Source: Gloeomargaritales cyanobacterium VI4D9 (GTDB lineage: Bacteria; Cyanobacteriota; Cyanobacteriia; Gloeomargaritales; Gloeomargaritaceae). From it: DNA of 64,000 nt. The notes under the pieces were generated by a model. That model worked only from the letters and a program-made list of their open reading frames with translations. It did not search any database and had not been told where the DNA came from. The translations under genes and the position numbers were made by a program. Shown here one piece after another: positions 18,456 through 27,321 of the stretch. The stretch's first letter is position 1. Each line of letters opens with the position of its first letter. Location: the NCBI GenBank assembly GCA_927797885.1, contig OV696605.1, positions 372,001 to 436,000 on the forward strand, given 5' to 3'.

Positions 18456-19152
18456 TTAGTAACTCTGCCAACCCGTGTGAATTTGTTCTTTCTGTATTGC
18501 TTCCATATCCCCTTGTAGTAATAGGGCGGTCAACTTAGCCGTAATCTCATTTTCCCAATAAGAATTATGGGCATCAATTACCCCTAAAGCCATCCCCGCA
18601 TGAAGTTGTCCGAGCCACAATGCACTTAATTCGGGGAGATTGCCAAATTGCCAAATGTACTGATCCATAAATAAAAAAAAGGGTTGATTGCAATCATGTT
18701 TGATGGCACTCCCTAGTAGGTAGGCAACTGAGTCGGACGCATGAATTAAATTGAGCCATATTAATGGAGTTGGATTCTTACCATAGAGGTAATCAACAAT
18801 AGAAAAGTTAATATCTTGTTTTATTTTCATAAACAACAGGGGTGAACCCATCGTGACCAGTCCATGTAATTCAAGCTGGTATGATTCGTCCTGAAACAAT
18901 TGGCGAAACTCATGGGCAGGGTCGGTGGATGGCACATTTTGAGCGAAGAGCAAATCCCATAGGATTAAAGTACCTAAAGAATGGGCAATAATCACGATTT
19001 TTTGATCCCTGGGATGTTGTTTTACAAATGATTGGAATTGCTCTAAAATTTGTTTACGAATTTCAGCCCCTTTCTCCGTGTGCATATAGGTCAAAAAATC
19101 ACCAAAGAATTTACCAATAAAATCTTCTCGTAATTCTTGATAGCGATAAATA
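18456..19152 (-). pseudogene. alpha/beta-hydrolase gene, C-terminal fragment cut by IS4
   Basis: About 232 codons that read directly out of the insertion sequence (apparent N-terminal residues before IYRYQELRED are IS sequence). The lipase-type nucleophile elbow is present (VIIAHSLGTLILWDLL, serine in HSLG). A histidine-bearing C-terminus (VIDAHNSYWENEITAKL) could complete the triad. The N-terminal piece is at 20260-20514 on the same strand: the fragments are collinear and separated only by the 1107-bp element. The intact protein would be about 315-320 residues, an esterase/lipase-like protein of unknown substrate. Confidence 0.82.
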
Positions 19153-20259
19153 CACAAGTGTTGAATCCTGCAATAAAACTTTACATATTTAGGCGTGGGA
19201 CGACCCGATTGAGCCAATGGACAAAATTCCACTCCTGCCGTATTAAGATTTGTATATATCGGAACTTATCTGCCAATTTACTTCCGTACATCCGTGGAAC
19301 TTTTAACAGTTGCAATATCAAGTAAACTATTAAAATTACATAAATTTGAATGGTAATTCCATTCAAATTTTTACTCATCATTTTATCGAGCTTTAAGTTC
19401 ATCTTTAGAAATTTCCATAGTACCTCTATCGCCCAGCGTTGTCTATAGGCTTCCCCTATCTCTTCATTACTCATTACATCCTCAGGAATATTGGTAGCTA
19501 AATAATAGTCTACTTTCTGTTGAACATTGCCAAAACAAACTACTCTCGCCTTACCTCGTTCTGTGGTGATATGATAGTTTTCATCCCATTTCCAATTCGA
19601 CTTAATACGGATAATAAAAAGGGCATCATTTTCGATAAATTGTTCAAATACTTTGTGACTGCAAAACCCTCTATCCCCGACTGCGACTCCATTTTCCGGT
19701 AGCATTTTCACAATATCTTCACCAAAATTAATCTCATGTGCCTGTCCAGGACTAACAATTAAATGACCAGTAGATTTCGTATCTTGATTCAAAGTGGTTA
19801 TTAACTTTACTTGGCGATAGCCTTGGAGCCAAAATAACTTACTCATCAGCGGTATTACGGTAGCATCAAAAGGACATAAAACCAACCTCTTTTCAGGATG
19901 AGCTTCCTCAATATAATGCAATAATTATGATAAAGATGCATAAAAATTTGTGGGTCTCTTGTCTTGTTCGCCTTAGAAAACGTGGATAAGTCAACCTTAA
20001 TGCCCGCATGATTTAATTGGTAAAATAAGTCCCGTAAACTGTTGATTCCTTTGTCTAAAATGCCAGCAAACCAGATTGAACAAAATAAGCGAGAATTTAG
20101 AACTGGATAATCATTAGTTGGCAGGTCTTTGAGTAAAAATTTGACAATCCCGGGAAAAGAATTGAATTTCATAGTTGTTTCATGTTTTGGTTTATATGAA
20201 TTAGAATACCATATTTTGACCCCTCTTTTTCTGCCTTTACCTACCTTTCAACACTTCTG
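19153..20259 (-). mobile_element. IS4-family insertion sequence, copy 2 (complete, 1107 bp)
   Basis: Ends are set by comparison with copy 1 and by imperfect terminal inverted repeats: CACAAGTGTTGAATCC at 19153 inward and CAGAAGTGTTGAAAGG read inward from 20259. It carries one transposase frame with a -1 break. It splits a hydrolase gene. The bases flanking the two ends (GAAATAACC and TATTTATCG in transposase orientation) do not form a direct repeat, unlike a fresh IS4 insertion, so the site has probably been rearranged since. Confidence 0.88.
19181..20172 (-). pseudogene. IS4-family transposase with a -1 frame break
   Basis: Read from ATG 20172 the N-terminal part runs in one frame (start MKFNSFPGIVKFLLKDLP, typical for this IS4 group) to about 19925. 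Homology then continues in the -1 frame from HYIEEAHPEK to the stop at 19181. The catalytic triad is complete in the second frame: D in CPFDATVIPL, D in GDRGF, E in the YRQRWAIEVLWKFLK signature. No obvious slippery heptamer or stimulatory structure was seen at the join (AATTATTGCATT), so I favour a mutation over programmed frameshifting. The identity of the rest to copy 1 suggests recent spread. Confidence 0.8.
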
Positions 20260-20514
20260 GGTTATTTCTTTGATGTCCGAACGTACCCAATTAAAAAGTT
20301 GATCCGTTTGATTTTTGAACGTATGTCCCCAAAAACTAGAATAAAAGACTGGTATGGGGATGTTATTCGCTTTGTGATTCTTCTTGCTGGTTTCTTTTAC
20401 CACCGCATTGTGATTGGCTTTGGCTTCTAGGATCAACTCTTTGACTTTCTTCTTAAATTTGTCACCATAACCCGCATTTTGAGTGGCGACCCCGTGAATT
20501 AAAAATACCAACAT
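20260..20514 (-). pseudogene. alpha/beta-hydrolase gene, N-terminal fragment cut by IS4
   Basis: 85 codons from ATG 20514 (MLVFLIHGVATQNAGYGDKF), opening with the beta-strand and HG oxyanion segment typical of lipase-like alpha/beta hydrolases. It continues through PVFYSSFWGHTF to SDIKEIT, where the insertion sequence begins; the frame ends three codons inside the element. The C-terminal part is at 18456-19152. The promoter probably lies in the 150 bp towards 20665. Confidence 0.82.
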
Positions 20515-21508: not shown

Positions 21509-22824
21509 CCGGGGTTGCGCCCCGGTTGGGGAGTGCGGCTTTGGTTGCTGGCGGGTTTGGGTGGGGTACCGGCGGTGGTTTTGGTCAATAGTTCCACGGC
21601 ACGGGCGTAGGCGGGGTCCCGGCTCGTCGTGGTGTCCGCTGGGCGTTGGGCGAGGGCTTGCCGTTGCGCCCGGGAAATTTCCACGGTGACGTTGGGGCTG
21701 ATGCCTTTGCGGGCGATGTCCCGACCGGAGGGGGTGTAGTAGTGGGCAATGGTGACCGCCAGACCGGAACCGTCACTGAGCCGATGCACGGATTGCACCA
21801 GGGCTTTACCAAAGGTGGGACTGCCCACCACCACCGCCCGTTTGTGGTCCTGCAAGGCACCCGCCACGATTTCACTGGCACTGGCGGATTGGTGATCGAC
21901 GAGGATGGCGAGGGGTTCTCGGGCAAAGGCGGTGCCATTGGCATGGAAGACTTCCCGTTCCCCTTGCCGCCCCACGGTGCTGACGATCCGCCCCCGATCC
22001 AGCCACATCCGGGTAATTTCGATGCTGGAACTCAGCAGTCCGCCGGGATTGCCCCGTAAATCCAGGACGTAGGCTTGGGCACCCTGCCGCTGTAGGGATT
22101 GGATCGCCTGCCGCATTTGCTCCGTGGCGTGGGCGTTGAATCCCTGGAGGCGAATTAAACCGATGGCGCGCCCCTGCTCCCGTTTCAGGGCGTAATCCAC
22201 GATTTTGGTTTCAATCCACGCCCGGGTGACCTGGAGGGGGATGGTTTCGTTGGCGCGGCGAATTTCCAGCCGTAATACAGTCCCCACGGGACCCCGGATC
22301 AACTTGCTGGCATCCTCCAGGGTCATCCCCTTGGCACTCCGACCGGCCACGGAGACCAATTCATCCCCAGGGCGAATCCCCGCTTTAGCCGCCGGGGAAT
22401 TTTCCACCACATCGGCGATGAGAATGCGTTTTTCTTCCCGTTCCTCATCCAGCTTTAACCGTACCCCCACCCCGGAAAACTCCCCCGCCGTTTGGTTGGC
22501 CAGGGCTTGAAATTCCTGGGGGTCGAGAAAGCGGGTGTAGGGGTCGCCTAGTTTGCTAATTTCTGCCCGCAAGGCGGCGTAGGCCTGGGCGGTGGTGCTG
22601 TACTCCCTAGACAGCAAATCCTGCCGCACCTGTTGCCAATTCACCCGGTTGAATTTGGGGTCCACGTAGTGGGTGTTGATGATCTGCCACGCCTCATCCA
22701 AAATCCCTTTGGGGCTGTTTTCCAGGGGGGTTTGGGCCCCCAAGGGCATGGCCAGCCCGACGGTGGTTAGCCCGACCAATAAGCCTGTCCATGATGGTTT
22801 GGTTGGTTGTTTGGTTCTATCCAT
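21505..22824 (-). CDS. ctpB: carboxyl-terminal processing protease (S41A)
   Basis: 439 residues with a signal peptide (hydrophobic [17 protein letters not shown]), so lumenal or periplasmic. Order of domains: N-terminal helical part with [14 protein letters not shown]; a PDZ domain around residues 105-195 ([25 protein letters not shown]); the S41 catalytic core with [11 protein letters not shown], the serine in [14 protein letters not shown] and the lysine in [11 protein letters not shown]. The C-terminus is a proline-rich tail. CtpA matures the D1 protein and has CtpB/CtpC paralogues; the family is certain, the exact paralogue is not. Confidence 0.9.
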
Positions 22825-22946
22825 AGCCCACCCACTGTACTCACAAAGAATTCCTTTTAATGTAACCCATATTTTCGGGAGTCGCCCCCTTTTTCACTTC
22901 TTTTCACTTCAGGCTAAAATGGCGTTACCTACTCTATTTGCTTGCC

Positions 22947-23375
22947 ATGAGTCCCCCGTCCCGACCCTTGGAAGTCACCCCGGAAAATCTGGGGCGCATT
23001 TTGGATATTGTTGAGCGTCTCGCCCACGACAACCAGGCGCTCACCCACCAGGTGGAGTTGCTGATTCAGCAGGTGGAAGATGCCCACAATTGCATTCGGG
23101 AATTATCCAAACTGATCCGGGAAATCTGGGACAATTTGGAGGGACGCTGGGACCGCCTGGAGCAGGGGTTAGAGCATATTGATTCCCAACAGGATGGGCT
23201 ACAAGGCCGCTGTGACCATTTGATTACCCTGATGAGCCGCCCGTTTTGGCAACAACTCCAGGAAGCCAGTGCCCCGGAATGGATGGTGAAACAGGCCTTT
23301 GAGGAGTATGTCCGCCGGTTGAACCACGCCCTGGAGCAGGAACCGGAATCGCCGCCGGAGGAGGAACAGACCTAA
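22947..23375 (+). CDS. predicted coiled-coil protein, unknown function
   Basis: 142 residues from ATG 22947 (a TTG-type start three codons upstream is possible). Residues ~12-90 are rich in heptad-like leucines and polar residues (ILDIVERLAHDNQALTHQVE and following), suggesting a coiled coil. The C-terminus is acidic (PESPPEEEQT). A plausible -10 element, TAAAAT, lies at about 22913. I do not recognise a domain. The stop is followed after 3 bp by the start of the CobN-like gene, so the two are very probably translated from one message; the products may act together. Confidence 0.7.
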   Translation: MSPPSRPLEVTPENLGRILDIVERLAHDNQALTHQVELLIQQVEDAHNCIRELSKLIREIWDNLEGRWDRLEQGLEHIDSQQDGLQGRCDHLITLMSRPFWQQLQEASAPEWMVKQAFEEYVRRLNHALEQEPESPPEEEQT

Positions 23376-23378
23376 CCT

Positions 23379-24830
23379 ATGCCCGCTGGCCGTCGGGAGC
23401 AAATTGCGGCTTTGGAAACCCAGGCGGCTGTTTGGGTGGGGCAACTCTTGGCAGACGAACCCTATGACCCCCCTCCAGGCCCCCAAGCCCAACAGGTTTT
23501 GGATTGGGTGAAAACGACCCTTTTGCCCCGGGTACGGCAAACGCCCCAGGAATTGACCCATCTCTTGCGGGGGTTACAGGGGCATTATGTGCCCAGTGGC
23601 CCCGCGGGGGCACCCACCCGGGGTCGACCAGAGGTACTGCCCACGGGACGGAATTTTTACGGGGTGGATGGGCGGGCGATTCCCACGGAAACGGCTTGGC
23701 AGGTGGGGCAACGGGGGGCGCAGGCGGTGATTGACCGCTACACCCAAGACCAGGGGGAATACCCCCGCAGTTTGGCTCTGTCCGTGTGGGGAACGGCGAC
23801 GTTGCGGACGGGGGGGGAGGATTTTGCGGAAGCCCTGGCGCTGTTGGGGGTGCGCCCGGTGTGGGCTGGGCCGAGCCGCCGGGTGGTGGATTTTGAGATT
23901 TTGCCCCTGGAGTTCCTGGGTCGCCCGCGGGTGGATGTGACCCTGCGGGTGTCGGGGTTCTTTCGGGATAGTTTTCCCCACCTGCTGGATTTGTTTGACC
24001 AGGCGGTGCGGGCGGTGGCCCAGTTGCCCGAGTCCCCCCAGGAGAACCCTTTGGTGGTGCCAGCAACGGGATTGCCGTTAGAACAGATGTACCTGCGGGT
24101 GTTTGGCCCCAAACCGGGAAGCTACGGGGCGGGGTTGCAGGGATTGATTGCCGCCCAAAATTGGGAAACCCCTGCGGATTTGGCGACGGCTTTTATCAAT
24201 TGGAGTGGCTATGGTTATACTGGCTCGACCTGGGGGGAACCGGCCCGAGAGGCACTGATTCAACGGTTACAAAATACGCAAATTGTCTTGCATAACCAGG
24301 ACAATCGGGAGCATGATATTTTAGATTCCGATGATTATTACCAGTTTCAGGGCGGGTTGAGCGTGGCGATTCGCAGTTTAACCGGCCGATACCCCATCCT
24401 GTATCACGGGGACCACAGCCGCCCCCCCTACCTGAAAATCCGCACCCTCCAGGAGGAACTTCAGCGGGTCTATCGCTCCCGGGTGGTGAACCCCAAATGG
24501 ATTCAGGCGATGGTGCGCCACGGGTACAAGGGGGCGTTGGAATTGGCGGCTACGGTGGATTATCTGTTTGCCTACGATGCCACCACGGCCTGCGGCAGGG
24601 ACTATATGTATGCGGGCATGGCCCAAGCGTACCTGCTTGACCCGGCGGTGCAGGCGTTTTTGCGCCAGGCAAACCCCTGGGCCCTACGGGGGATGGCGGA
24701 ACGGTTGTGGGAGGCGCACCAGCGGGGTCAATGGTCGAACCCGGGCCCAAAGATATTAGCCGCCCTGCGCCATTTAATCCATGAAACGGAAGCCCTTATT
24801 GAACAACGGGGACAAACTGCCCCACCGTAG
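23379..24830 (+). CDS. CobN/ChlH-family chelatase, C-terminal part only
   Basis: 483 residues that align with the last third of CobN, the large subunit of aerobic cobaltochelatase. Recognisable stretches are GHYVPSGPAGAPTRGRPEVL, PTGRNFYGVDGRAIPTETAW, LSVWGTATLRTGGEDFAEAL, GRPRVDVTLRVSGFFRDSFP, and YGAGLQGLIA with YGYTGSTWG. Full CobN and ChlH proteins are about 1,250-1,400 residues; the N-terminal ~800 are absent. The start is supported by the preceding coiled-coil gene ending 3 bp upstream, and there is no insertion sequence nearby. It could be a split subunit or a paralogue with a new role. The 3' end overlaps the cheA-like gene by 35 bp, tail to tail. Confidence 0.85.
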   Translation: MPAGRREQIAALETQAAVWVGQLLADEPYDPPPGPQAQQVLDWVKTTLLPRVRQTPQELTHLLRGLQGHYVPSGPAGAPTRGRPEVLPTGRNFYGVDGRAIPTETAWQVGQRGAQAVIDRYTQDQGEYPRSLALSVWGTATLRTGGEDFAEALALLGVRPVWAGPSRRVVDFEILPLEFLGRPRVDVTLRVSGFFRDSFPHLLDLFDQAVRAVAQLPESPQENPLVVPATGLPLEQMYLRVFGPKPGSYGAGLQGLIAAQNWETPADLATAFINWSGYGYTGSTWGEPAREALIQRLQNTQIVLHNQDNREHDILDSDDYYQFQGGLSVAIRSLTGRYPILYHGDHSRPPYLKIRTLQEELQRVYRSRVVNPKWIQAMVRHGYKGALELAATVDYLFAYDATTACGRDYMYAGMAQAYLLDPAVQAFLRQANPWALRGMAERLWEAHQRGQWSNPGPKILAALRHLIHETEALIEQRGQTAPP

Positions 24831-27321
24831 CTAGGAGTTCGCTGGGGTTGCAGGGTTTGCCCAGATAGCCGTTCACCCCCAAACTGCTGGCCTTGGTGCG
24901 GTGGCGGTCGCCGGTGCGGGAGGTGAGCATGACCACGGGCAGACGGCTGACCTGGGAATGCTCCCGGATGCTCTGGAGCAGGTCTAACCCATTCAAGCGG
25001 GGCATTTCCAAATCCGTCAAAACCAGCTTAACTTTATTGGTATTTTGTAATAAAACTTCCCAGGCTTCTTGCCCGTCTCTGCACGCTAAAATTTCGTATC
25101 CCGCTTGCCCCAACACACTAGACAGAATCCGGCGGGTATAGACGGAGTCTTCGGCGATGAGAATGGTGGGGCGTTGGCTGGTGGGTTCCTCCCCCACGGG
25201 GAGCAGGGCAGGGGTCACGGTTTCTCCCGGTCGCCGCATTTGGCTGGGGAGCAGTACCGGGATGGATTCCCCCGAGGGCAGGACGGCCGCCCCCACGAAG
25301 TAGGGAGGGAGGGGGAAAATTTCTTCCACCCGTTTCACCATCCGTTGTCGCACCTCGCTGAGTTCGTCCACCACCAGGCCGATGGGTTGCTCCTGGGGGC
25401 CACGCAACACTAGGATCGCCTGCGCCAGCGGGGGTTCCAGGGGAACGGCGTATGCCAGCAGGTGTTCCGGTAGGTACACGGGCAAATCCTGGTCTTGCCA
25501 GGTCACGCTCAGGGGGTGGTCAAAGTTGCGTTCCACCGGGACTTCCCGCAGAATATCCAGCACACTGTCCGCCAAAAAGCCCAACTGCCGCCCCTGGGCA
25601 CGGACGATCAGCAGGGGCAAAAGGCTCACCGCCAGGGGCAAGCGCAGGGTAAAGCGGGTGCCTTGGCCGGGGGTGGAGGCGATTTCTACCATGCCCCCCA
25701 ACTGGCGGATTTCCGTGCGTACCGCATCCAAGCCCACCCCCCGCCCGGAGAGTTCCGAGACCTGGGCACTGGTGGAAAACCCTGGCATAAACAGAAAATC
25801 CAGCAGTTCCTGCGGGCTGAGTTGCTCAAAAGCGGCCTGGGTCAACCCCCGCTCCTGCGCCTTGCGATACACCCGTTCCAAATCCACGCCCCGGCCATCG
25901 TCCTGGATGCTGATCAGGGCTTGGTTCCCCTGCACCTGAGCGCACAGCCAAATCTGGGCGGTGGGGGATTTGCCCCGTGCCAAGCGTTCCTGGGGGGGTT
26001 CGATGCCGTGGTCAAAGGCGTTGTTCACCAGGTGGGTCAAGGAGCCTTTGAGTTGCTCCAACAGCACCCGGTCCAGTAGGACTTCCGCCCCCTCAATCCG
26101 ACATTGCACCTGTTTCCCATACCGTTGCCCCAACCGGTGGATTTTGTTGGCAAAGGGGCTGGCGAGGGTACTAAAGGGATTCAACCGGGCTTTGGTGGAT
26201 TCGCTGTAGATTTGGTTCAAATTGCGCCGCAAACTCACCAATTCCCGGGCGGCACTGCGGGTGACCAGGTCTAAATCCTCGGCGTTTTCGCTGATCTGGG
26301 CGACAAATTCCTGGCAGGCTTGCAGGGTTTGGTGCAGGGCACTGAAACGGTCCATCTCCAGGGGGTCAAATTCCGTGCCTTCCGCGGCTCGGTATTGCAA
26401 AGCCAGTTGTTCGTACACCTCGTCCATCTGCTCCCGCACCGGTTCAAATCCCTGCACCAGGTCTTTCAAATGGCGGATGGTGGCTTCCACCTGCTCCTGT
26501 TGACCGCTGAGTTTTTCCAGATAGAGCAGTAAATCCCCGCCGGTGTTGGCGAGGAATTCGATGGTCCGCAGGGGCAAACGGACATGGGTGAGAACCGTGG
26601 CGGCTTCCACCGGGGGGGCGGGTTCCGGTTCCAGGCGGGTGGCGGCGGCAGGGGGGGCGACCGGAGCAATGCCCAAAAATTCATCCCGTTCCCGGCGAAT
26701 CTGGGCAATCACCTGCGTTGCCGTGGCCATGTCGGCGGTGTCCTGCAGGGGGGCAAGGGCGGTTGTTAACCAGGGCAATTGCAATTCTTCCGCCAGGAAG
26801 GTGCAGTTTTCCAGCAGTTCCGTGACCGCCCCCAAATCCCCTTGCTGTAACCGTCCTTCCGCCACCTGCAGACAGTCCTCCAGGGCACCGGTGAGGGCAG
26901 CCCGCCGTTCCTCCTCCGGGCTGGGTTCGGTGGGGCGTTCCTGAGCCACCAAATGGGCAATGGCTTCCAAAAGCTGGGGGTCGCCGGTGACTTCGGGATG
27001 TGCCACGTTATCCAACAGCCAAGCCAGTTCCTCCACGCCCCGCCGCACCAAGGGTTCCCCCCCAGGTAGGTGCCGTTGCCCCATCAGTTCCAGCAAATCC
27101 TCTAACTGGTGCGCCAGTTTTTGTAAGGCAGGCATTTGGAAGGTACCCGCTCCCCCCTTGAGGGTATGGGCCGCCCGCATCAGTTTTTCGTAGTCCCACT
27201 GGGGGGCCGTGATCCCCTGGCGGAGGATGTCCAGGTACTGGGGCGCTTCCTCCTCCAAAAACCCCTGGCGGGCTTCGGCCATCAAGCTGGCGAGGGTGTC
27301 GTTGTCAAAGGGACTGCTCAT
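24796..27321 (-). CDS. pilL: CheA-like hybrid histidine kinase with receiver domain (PilL type)
   Basis: 841 residues from ATG 27321 (or 27327, two codons earlier). The longer open frame upstream is the shadow of the MCP gene. Domains in order: Hpt with phosphorylatable His52 (AAHTLKGGAGTF); a linker; dimerisation region; HATPase (N-box HLVNNAFDHGIEPP, G1 DDGRGVDLERVY, G2 SGRGVGLDAVRTE); CheW-like domain; C-terminal receiver with acidic residues in LIAEDS, phospho-acceptor Asp in LTDLEMPRL and Lys in GKPC. The order matches the CheA-type kinase (slr0322/PilL-like) controlling type IV pilus motility in Synechocystis. The start overlaps the MCP stop by 17 bp, implying translational coupling. 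Confidence 0.92.
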   Translation of the reverse strand: MSSPFDNDTLASLMAEARQGFLEEEAPQYLDILRQGITAPQWDYEKLMRAAHTLKGGAGTFQMPALQKLAHQLEDLLELMGQRHLPGGEPLVRRGVEELAWLLDNVAHPEVTGDPQLLEAIAHLVAQERPTEPSPEEERRAALTGALEDCLQVAEGRLQQGDLGAVTELLENCTFLAEELQLPWLTTALAPLQDTADMATATQVIAQIRRERDEFLGIAPVAPPAAATRLEPEPAPPVEAATVLTHVRLPLRTIEFLANTGGDLLLYLEKLSGQQEQVEATIRHLKDLVQGFEPVREQMDEVYEQLALQYRAAEGTEFDPLEMDRFSALHQTLQACQEFVAQISENAEDLDLVTRSAARELVSLRRNLNQIYSESTKARLNPFSTLASPFANKIHRLGQRYGKQVQCRIEGAEVLLDRVLLEQLKGSLTHLVNNAFDHGIEPPQERLARGKSPTAQIWLCAQVQGNQALISIQDDGRGVDLERVYRKAQERGLTQAAFEQLSPQELLDFLFMPGFSTSAQVSELSGRGVGLDAVRTEIRQLGGMVEIASTPGQGTRFTLRLPLAVSLLPLLIVRAQGRQLGFLADSVLDILREVPVERNFDHPLSVTWQDQDLPVYLPEHLLAYAVPLEPPLAQAILVLRGPQEQPIGLVVDELSEVRQRMVKRVEEIFPLPPYFVGAAVLPSGESIPVLLPSQMRRPGETVTPALLPVGEEPTSQRPTILIAEDSVYTRRILSSVLGQAGYEILACRDGQEAWEVLLQNTNKVKLVLTDLEMPRLNGLDLLQSIREHSQVSRLPVVMLTSRTGDRHRTKASSLGVNGYLGKPCNPSELLATVGQFVPVVQ

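Follow-up and report, generated by a model that had tools for sequence, protein, structure and literature searches.

A two-gene CobN

This early-branching cyanobacterium very probably makes CobN, the large subunit of cobaltochelatase that binds the substrate, as a working two-polypeptide subunit from two unlinked genes, a reading to which, on gene content and sequence conservation, we give a probability of roughly 0.86. The gene for the C-terminal chain lies in the window (the whole 64,000-nucleotide stretch of DNA that was analysed), and the window's genome (G000) is a single contig of 3,162,419 bases. The features of the locus are as follows.

22891..22920, + strand: putative promoter-like site upstream of the coiled-coil gene, recognised by consensus alone
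22947..23375, + strand: gene for a genus-specific, mostly helical (predicted coiled-coil) protein of 142 aa (ORF)
23357..23366, + strand: purine-rich, putative Shine-Dalgarno-like stretch within the end of the coiled-coil gene (inferred from the sequence)
23379..24830, + strand: C-terminal part of cobN, 483 aa, second chain of the split CobN (ORF, TIGR02257/PF02514, motifs and predicted fold)

The 142-aa ORF (22947-23375) ends in a TAA at 23373-23375, and the ATG of the 483-aa ORF (23379-24830, + strand) follows 3 bases on, at 23379, just as an earlier note on this DNA had read from the sequence. The 483-aa protein represents the C-terminal ~38% of CobN and matches positions 762-1225 of 1226 in TIGR02257 (E 1.4e-202) and positions 636-1087 of 1090 in PF02514, far above chance. 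Its description in that note as the last third of a CobN/ChlH large subunit therefore holds, with exact coordinates and with CobN rather than ChlH as the best family. Three promoter-like sites were found in 22700-25000 compared with 0.6 expected in shuffled sequences, as consensus matches and not as functional evidence. Elsewhere in the window, an insertion-sequence transposase seems to disrupt a minus-strand hydrolase-like gene (18456-20514); this transposase copy is split by a frameshift into two overlapping ORFs, and another copy in the same genome (L132:1-720) reads through.

A PF02514 search of G000 returned exactly three places: a full ChlH (identity confirmed by NCBIfam), an N-terminal CobN part and the C-terminal part in the window. 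The N-part match (C1:3146289-3148064, model positions 1-624) falls in an open frame of 751 aa with no stop, and the gene itself is intact and encodes 731 aa (G000:C1:3145893-3148085; ORF L002:1105-3300). TIGR02257 is the best family of both halves, and the matched ranges are complementary and in order. The N-chain covers positions 1-736 with 851 bits, over the cut-off of 822, and the C-chain, because it is partial, stays under that cut-off by itself (675.6 bits). A ChlH/BchH identity of the halves was ruled out, since the CobN model scores far better on both (676 bits for C and 851 for N versus 344 and 330 with the BchH model). Together, the two chains make up a complete CobN except for some linker. 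The same search detected no full-length CobN in G000, that is, no single polypeptide of ~1,200 aa; with genes of 731 and 483 aa and no full-length copy, the claim is hence one of a split, two-chain CobN and not of an ordinary CobN. The search of the genome for CobN, ChlH and a separate N-terminal part that the earlier note had proposed thus returned the latter two and no full-length CobN.

The two genes are ~412 kb apart in G000 if the contig is circular and 2.75 Mb apart otherwise, and the distance ranges from 123 to 830 kb, differing from genome to genome, in the five genomes with both halves on one contig. Neither breakage nor an adjacent second fragment, the outcomes that the earlier note had set against its own reading, was observed: the second fragment lies far from the C-part (123-830 kb in those five genomes). 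A hidden full-length CobN was also considered and rejected, as the additional long matches to PF02514 seen in G001, G002 and G006 are of BchH type. These three genomes carry a second full-length BchH-type H subunit (L212:64-3699, L213:411-4157 and L214:378-4193), which is absent from G000, G003, G004 and G007.

Distribution of the split among cyanobacteria

We compared the window's order (f1, 8 genomes) and a second family (f5: G011, G035, G048, G071, G081, G092, G101 and G110), which we take to be, most likely, Gloeomargaritales and Thermostichales. G011 and G081 are presumably Synechococcus JA-2-3B'a and JA-3-3Ab, and G004 Gloeomargarita lithophora. A consulted excerpt of PMC11304991 places Synechococcus JA-2-3B'a and JA-3-3Ab in Thermostichales. 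A separate C-part was found in 8/8 genomes of the order and a separate N-part in seven of these eight, the exception being G005, an 83%-complete MAG; all eight f5 genomes encode both halves, with N-part open frames of 743-831 aa. This gives 16 split genomes and 15 N/C pairs in two families. An assembly break or frameshift at the window's locus was ruled out because all eight genomes of the order are alike, some of them assembled in one or few contigs, which upholds the earlier impression of an unbroken locus.

A class-wide search detected a C-part match at E<=1e-110 in 333 of 388 genomes, of which 229 were examined (149 listed and 80 picked to span families and genera). The 16 split genomes in this set comprise 8/8 from f1 and 8/8 from f5. 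Among the other 213, a CobN frame of >1,000 aa was present in 187 and a shorter one in 26; of these short frames, 22 are cut off by the end of a contig (as judged by contig extent or by a match close to base 1), three result from frameshifts and one (G113) is unchecked. Apparent splits in G243, G248 and G239 were ruled out as frameshifts with the N-part next door; G113 aside, further split cases among the examined genomes of the class were likewise rejected, the short frames outside f1 and f5 being contig ends or frameshifts. The split of CobN is old, and, given the arrangement in close relatives and in a second old lineage, the apparent half gene is no broken remnant. No report of a split cobN was found in the literature searched, which took in few subscription journals; the fission is thus real, old and, within that literature, undescribed. 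The split reading also corrects the likely mistake of taking each half for a truncated CobN.

Two overlapping frames were seen in the CobN of Nodosilinea nodulosa PCC 7104 (L111:3489-7356) and on two filamentous MAG contigs (L055 and L077), as a result of either sequencing errors or real frameshifts. In addition, a CobN of cyanobacterial appearance (59.5% identity to the C-part) was seen in two frames on L089, a contig labelled as Chloroflexaceae MAG SM1_2_4; a binning error is the probable cause.

Position of the cut, motifs and predicted structure

The cut falls where the one-chain cyanobacterial CobN is variable and often of low complexity, flanked by the conserved segments ...DFDPL... and ...TVGDAV..LE.... 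In G000, the N-chain ends ~6 residues past its CobN match and the C-chain begins ~5 residues before its own, just ahead of the next conserved helix, and the N-chains of G001, G002 and G006 have a proline-rich tail of roughly 45 residues. All 15 N-chains contain the motif H(L/V)GKHG, and all 15 C-chains contain LDSDDYYQFQGG; the two cavity motifs, found in 15/15 split pairs, occur in 84/86 and 85/86 full-length ORFs, respectively. According to the consulted part of PMC12583661, domains III and V flank the active site of class I chelatases, domain III carrying a motif of the HFG(T/A)HG type and domain V the second motif, and the histidines of both motifs face each other across the cavity in HmuS. 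As judged from motif positions, the cut separates the conserved active-site motifs, leaving the first on the N-chain and the second on the C-chain.

Of the alignment columns without variation across 38 full-length CobN, 124/149 (N) and 131/151 (C) are also invariant in all 15 split pairs. Changes at such positions in f1 (e.g., N201H and F343H in the C-chain and W133H in the N-chain) could hint at an altered function. The pattern YDP.PG is present in 14/15 split C-chains and 0/86 full-length ORFs, with a similar PPGP stretch in the full-length G021 protein. The predicted fold of the C-chain matches CobN (7c6o) and a C-terminal CobN piece (9fpc). Confidence in the C-part model is moderate (mean pLDDT 70.6, pTM 0.66, residues 57-100 poor), as would be expected if the partner chain is needed and equally if the alignment is thin.

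Predicted function of the two-chain CobN

Within the genus, substitution rates indicate that both halves are under purifying selection. For G000 versus G003, dN and dS were 0.038 and 0.238 for N and 0.016 and 0.183 for C; G000 versus G004 gave dN/dS values of 0.143/1.080 (N) and 0.118/0.679 (C). The corrin gene product CbiC is encoded in all 16 split genomes, and the B12-dependent MetH in 15, with no match in G001. The B12-independent MetE was detected in 8/16, where B12 is consequently not obviously essential, and was not found in G000, G004 or G007; with MetH present and no MetE detected, G000 appears to need B12. The C-part also lies near cbiC in G048 and near a cbiG-methylase fusion gene in G071. 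CbiC-like genes number two to four per f5 genome versus one per f1 genome.

No CobT (PF06213) was detected in any of the 16 split genomes, and the Caulobacter control was positive; this does not fit a canonical CobNST complex. ChlI/ChlD have been proposed as the chelatase motors of cyanobacteria, according to the consulted part of PMC9227772. As no CobT gene was found, ChlI/ChlD are the likely ATPase partner here. The N- and C-chains would fold separately, dock via an interface of the body and form a cavity like that of the one-chain CobN, and the assembled subunit would insert cobalt during B12 synthesis. If so, a metal chelatase of class I can be maintained, functional by all genomic signs, while two independently encoded chains share its active site, and these would offer a natural pair for reconstitution work on cobalt insertion in B12 synthesis.

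The coiled-coil gene and alternative readings

The coiled-coil gene lies directly upstream of cobN-C in 7/7 genomes of the genus. Its product is 82-99% identical between the window and the six other genus genomes, and its dN is far below dS where computable. AlphaFold2 predicts a helix at residues 12-97 (mean pLDDT 80.8), and the 142-aa protein matched no Pfam, NCBIfam or PHROG family and no fold at E<=0.001. The gene was not detected in the other 32 genomes in a sequence search of 39, and a profile search of 59 genomes gave no convincing match in the other 52; relatives beyond the genus were rejected, as the weak matches (E 0.004-1) look like chance coiled-coil similarity. A genome-wide search for it in four of the nine split genomes outside the genus was also negative, and it precedes the C-part in none of the nine. 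There, the gene upstream of the C-part is trpC (G007), a transaldolase (G011 and G081) or a DUF3352 gene (G092), or other arrangements occur. The transaldolase of the two f5 genomes has a C-terminal EF-hand pair (L120:5446-6624 and L172:4988-6226).

The coiled-coil and cobN-C ORFs share one frame in G000, G003, G004 and G005, and in G001, G002 and G006 they overlap out of frame with each other; a fusion by read-through of the TAA was accordingly rejected as not conserved. Because cobN-C starts within or almost directly after the end of the coiled-coil gene, the two are probably translated together; in the window, the Shine-Dalgarno-like stretch (23357..23366) is 12 bases from the cobN-C start. 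Conservation of the gene pair, which the earlier note had proposed to check, thus extends to 7/7 genus genomes and to 0/9 other split genomes. A simple reading is that the C-part, promoterless after fission, came to lie downstream of expressed genes that differ between lineages. We regard the coiled-coil protein as a neighbour of CobN confined to this genus and probably co-translated with the C-part; it may aid assembly, with no general requirement for it.

A stronger role for this protein, as a dedicated clamp or assembly factor of a real two-chain CobN in the genus, is possible but less likely than not. Its exclusive adjacency in 7/7 genus genomes, nearly touching or overlapping, is in keeping with such a role, as is its higher conservation (82-99% versus 71-96% for the CobN halves, with G005 only in the former comparison). 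However, searches for the gene were negative in G007, a member of the family, and in the f5 genomes covered, all of which have a split CobN, the unrelated genes ahead of the C-part elsewhere (trpC, transaldolase and DUF3352) fit the use of a neighbour's promoter, and the protein has no family or fold match. The earlier note had also suggested a repurposed half working with the coiled-coil protein; such a half might, for example, bind corrins and have lost its chelatase role. Tight coupling to the coiled-coil gene across the genus (7/7) and a number of changed residues where full-length CobN does not vary are compatible with this, but the N-part is retained under purifying selection, the active-site motifs are kept in 15/15 pairs along with most invariant positions, no other CobN gene is present in the genome and, of the 16 genomes that encode the C-part separately, nine are not from the genus with the coiled-coil gene and do not have that gene upstream. 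We consequently consider repurposing very unlikely, and it was the other option of that note, a split chelatase, that was supported by the separate N-part gene, the absence of a full-length CobN and the 15 N/C pairs in two families.

Decay, with cobN broken by rearrangement and both pieces pseudogenes or on their way out, could account for halves that lie far apart, at differing distances, in five one-contig genomes. Nonetheless, the 15 N/C pairs in two families have open frames and kept motifs, with low dN/dS in the genus, making decay highly improbable. Split inteins join DnaE in cyanobacteria, and this precedent raises the possibility that the CobN halves are ligated after translation. In G000, however, only the ~6 residues after the N-chain match and ~5 before the C-chain match would be available, and Pfam detected no intein domain at the N-chain end or C-chain start of the G000 chains, such that ligation by a split intein is barely conceivable. 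The two-chain chelatase subunit is thus the reading that we retain.

One fission or two

Phylogenetic analysis did not settle on a single placement of the split sequences. A quick LG+G4 tree (53 rows) grouped the 15 split pairs with an SH-aLRT of 98.8, and the C-part alone grouped them at 94.9. The N-part alone did not, though a tree constrained to unite the split sequences scored 23 log units higher (p-AU 0.758). A more extensive search, on 48 rows (L105, L012, L099, L066 and G035 left out), did not group them either, with f5 joining L026, which has a long branch, at 86/65; one change was needed in 12% of 200 bootstrap trees, and the constraint uniting the split sequences raised the likelihood by 21.3 (p-AU 0.715). 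The split was again not grouped in a quick mixture-model tree of 45 rows (L026, L078 and L021 also left out), and the alternative had a support of 17. In a ChlH tree (27 rows), f1 and f5 were not sisters, and a tree constrained to unite them was 23.5 log units worse (p-AU 0.209). The trees of the CobN halves hence lean towards joining f1 and f5, not robustly, and the ChlH tree does not; on these trees, neither one nor two origins of the split is rejected.

We think it rather unlikely that a single ancient cobN fission is common to Gloeomargaritales and Thermostichales, as a rare genomic marker that would either unite these two early orders or record a two-gene transfer between them, and that Gloeomargarita later recruited the coiled-coil protein as an assembly factor. 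If this were true, the CobN large subunit of the Gloeomargarita genus would consist of three polypeptides. With one fission, the split would reflect shared inheritance or the transfer of two unlinked genes, and would be a rare change bearing on the disputed early branching of cyanobacteria, next to the lineage reported as closest to plastids.

Comparison with known systems

The split DnaE of cyanobacteria is, like CobN here, a large enzyme from two distant genes; its halves are joined by an intein, whereas none was seen in the split CobN of G000. The one-chain CobN (TIGR02257; PDB 7c6o and 9uk9) resembles the split form in sequence, domains and both motifs, and differs from the protein described here, which is encoded by two unlinked genes and whose cut falls in the variable linker joining the N- and C-terminal portions of the body. 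ChlH/BchH (4zhj and 6ysg) share superfamily and fold with the CobN halves, but are one chain and, in the window's genome, encoded by a separate gene. Structures of C-terminal pieces alone have been solved for CobN (9fpc) and ChlH (6ys9 and 5ewu). The heme dechelatase HmuS (9d26) has the same six-domain plan according to the consulted part of PMC12583661; our N-chain matches it up to residue 703 and the C-chain from 931, and the disordered, methionine-rich HmuS insertion described there (780-898) falls inside this interval of the CobN cut. In contrast to the two-chain CobN, HmuS is, per the same excerpt, one chain with membrane anchors, and it takes metal out instead of inserting it.
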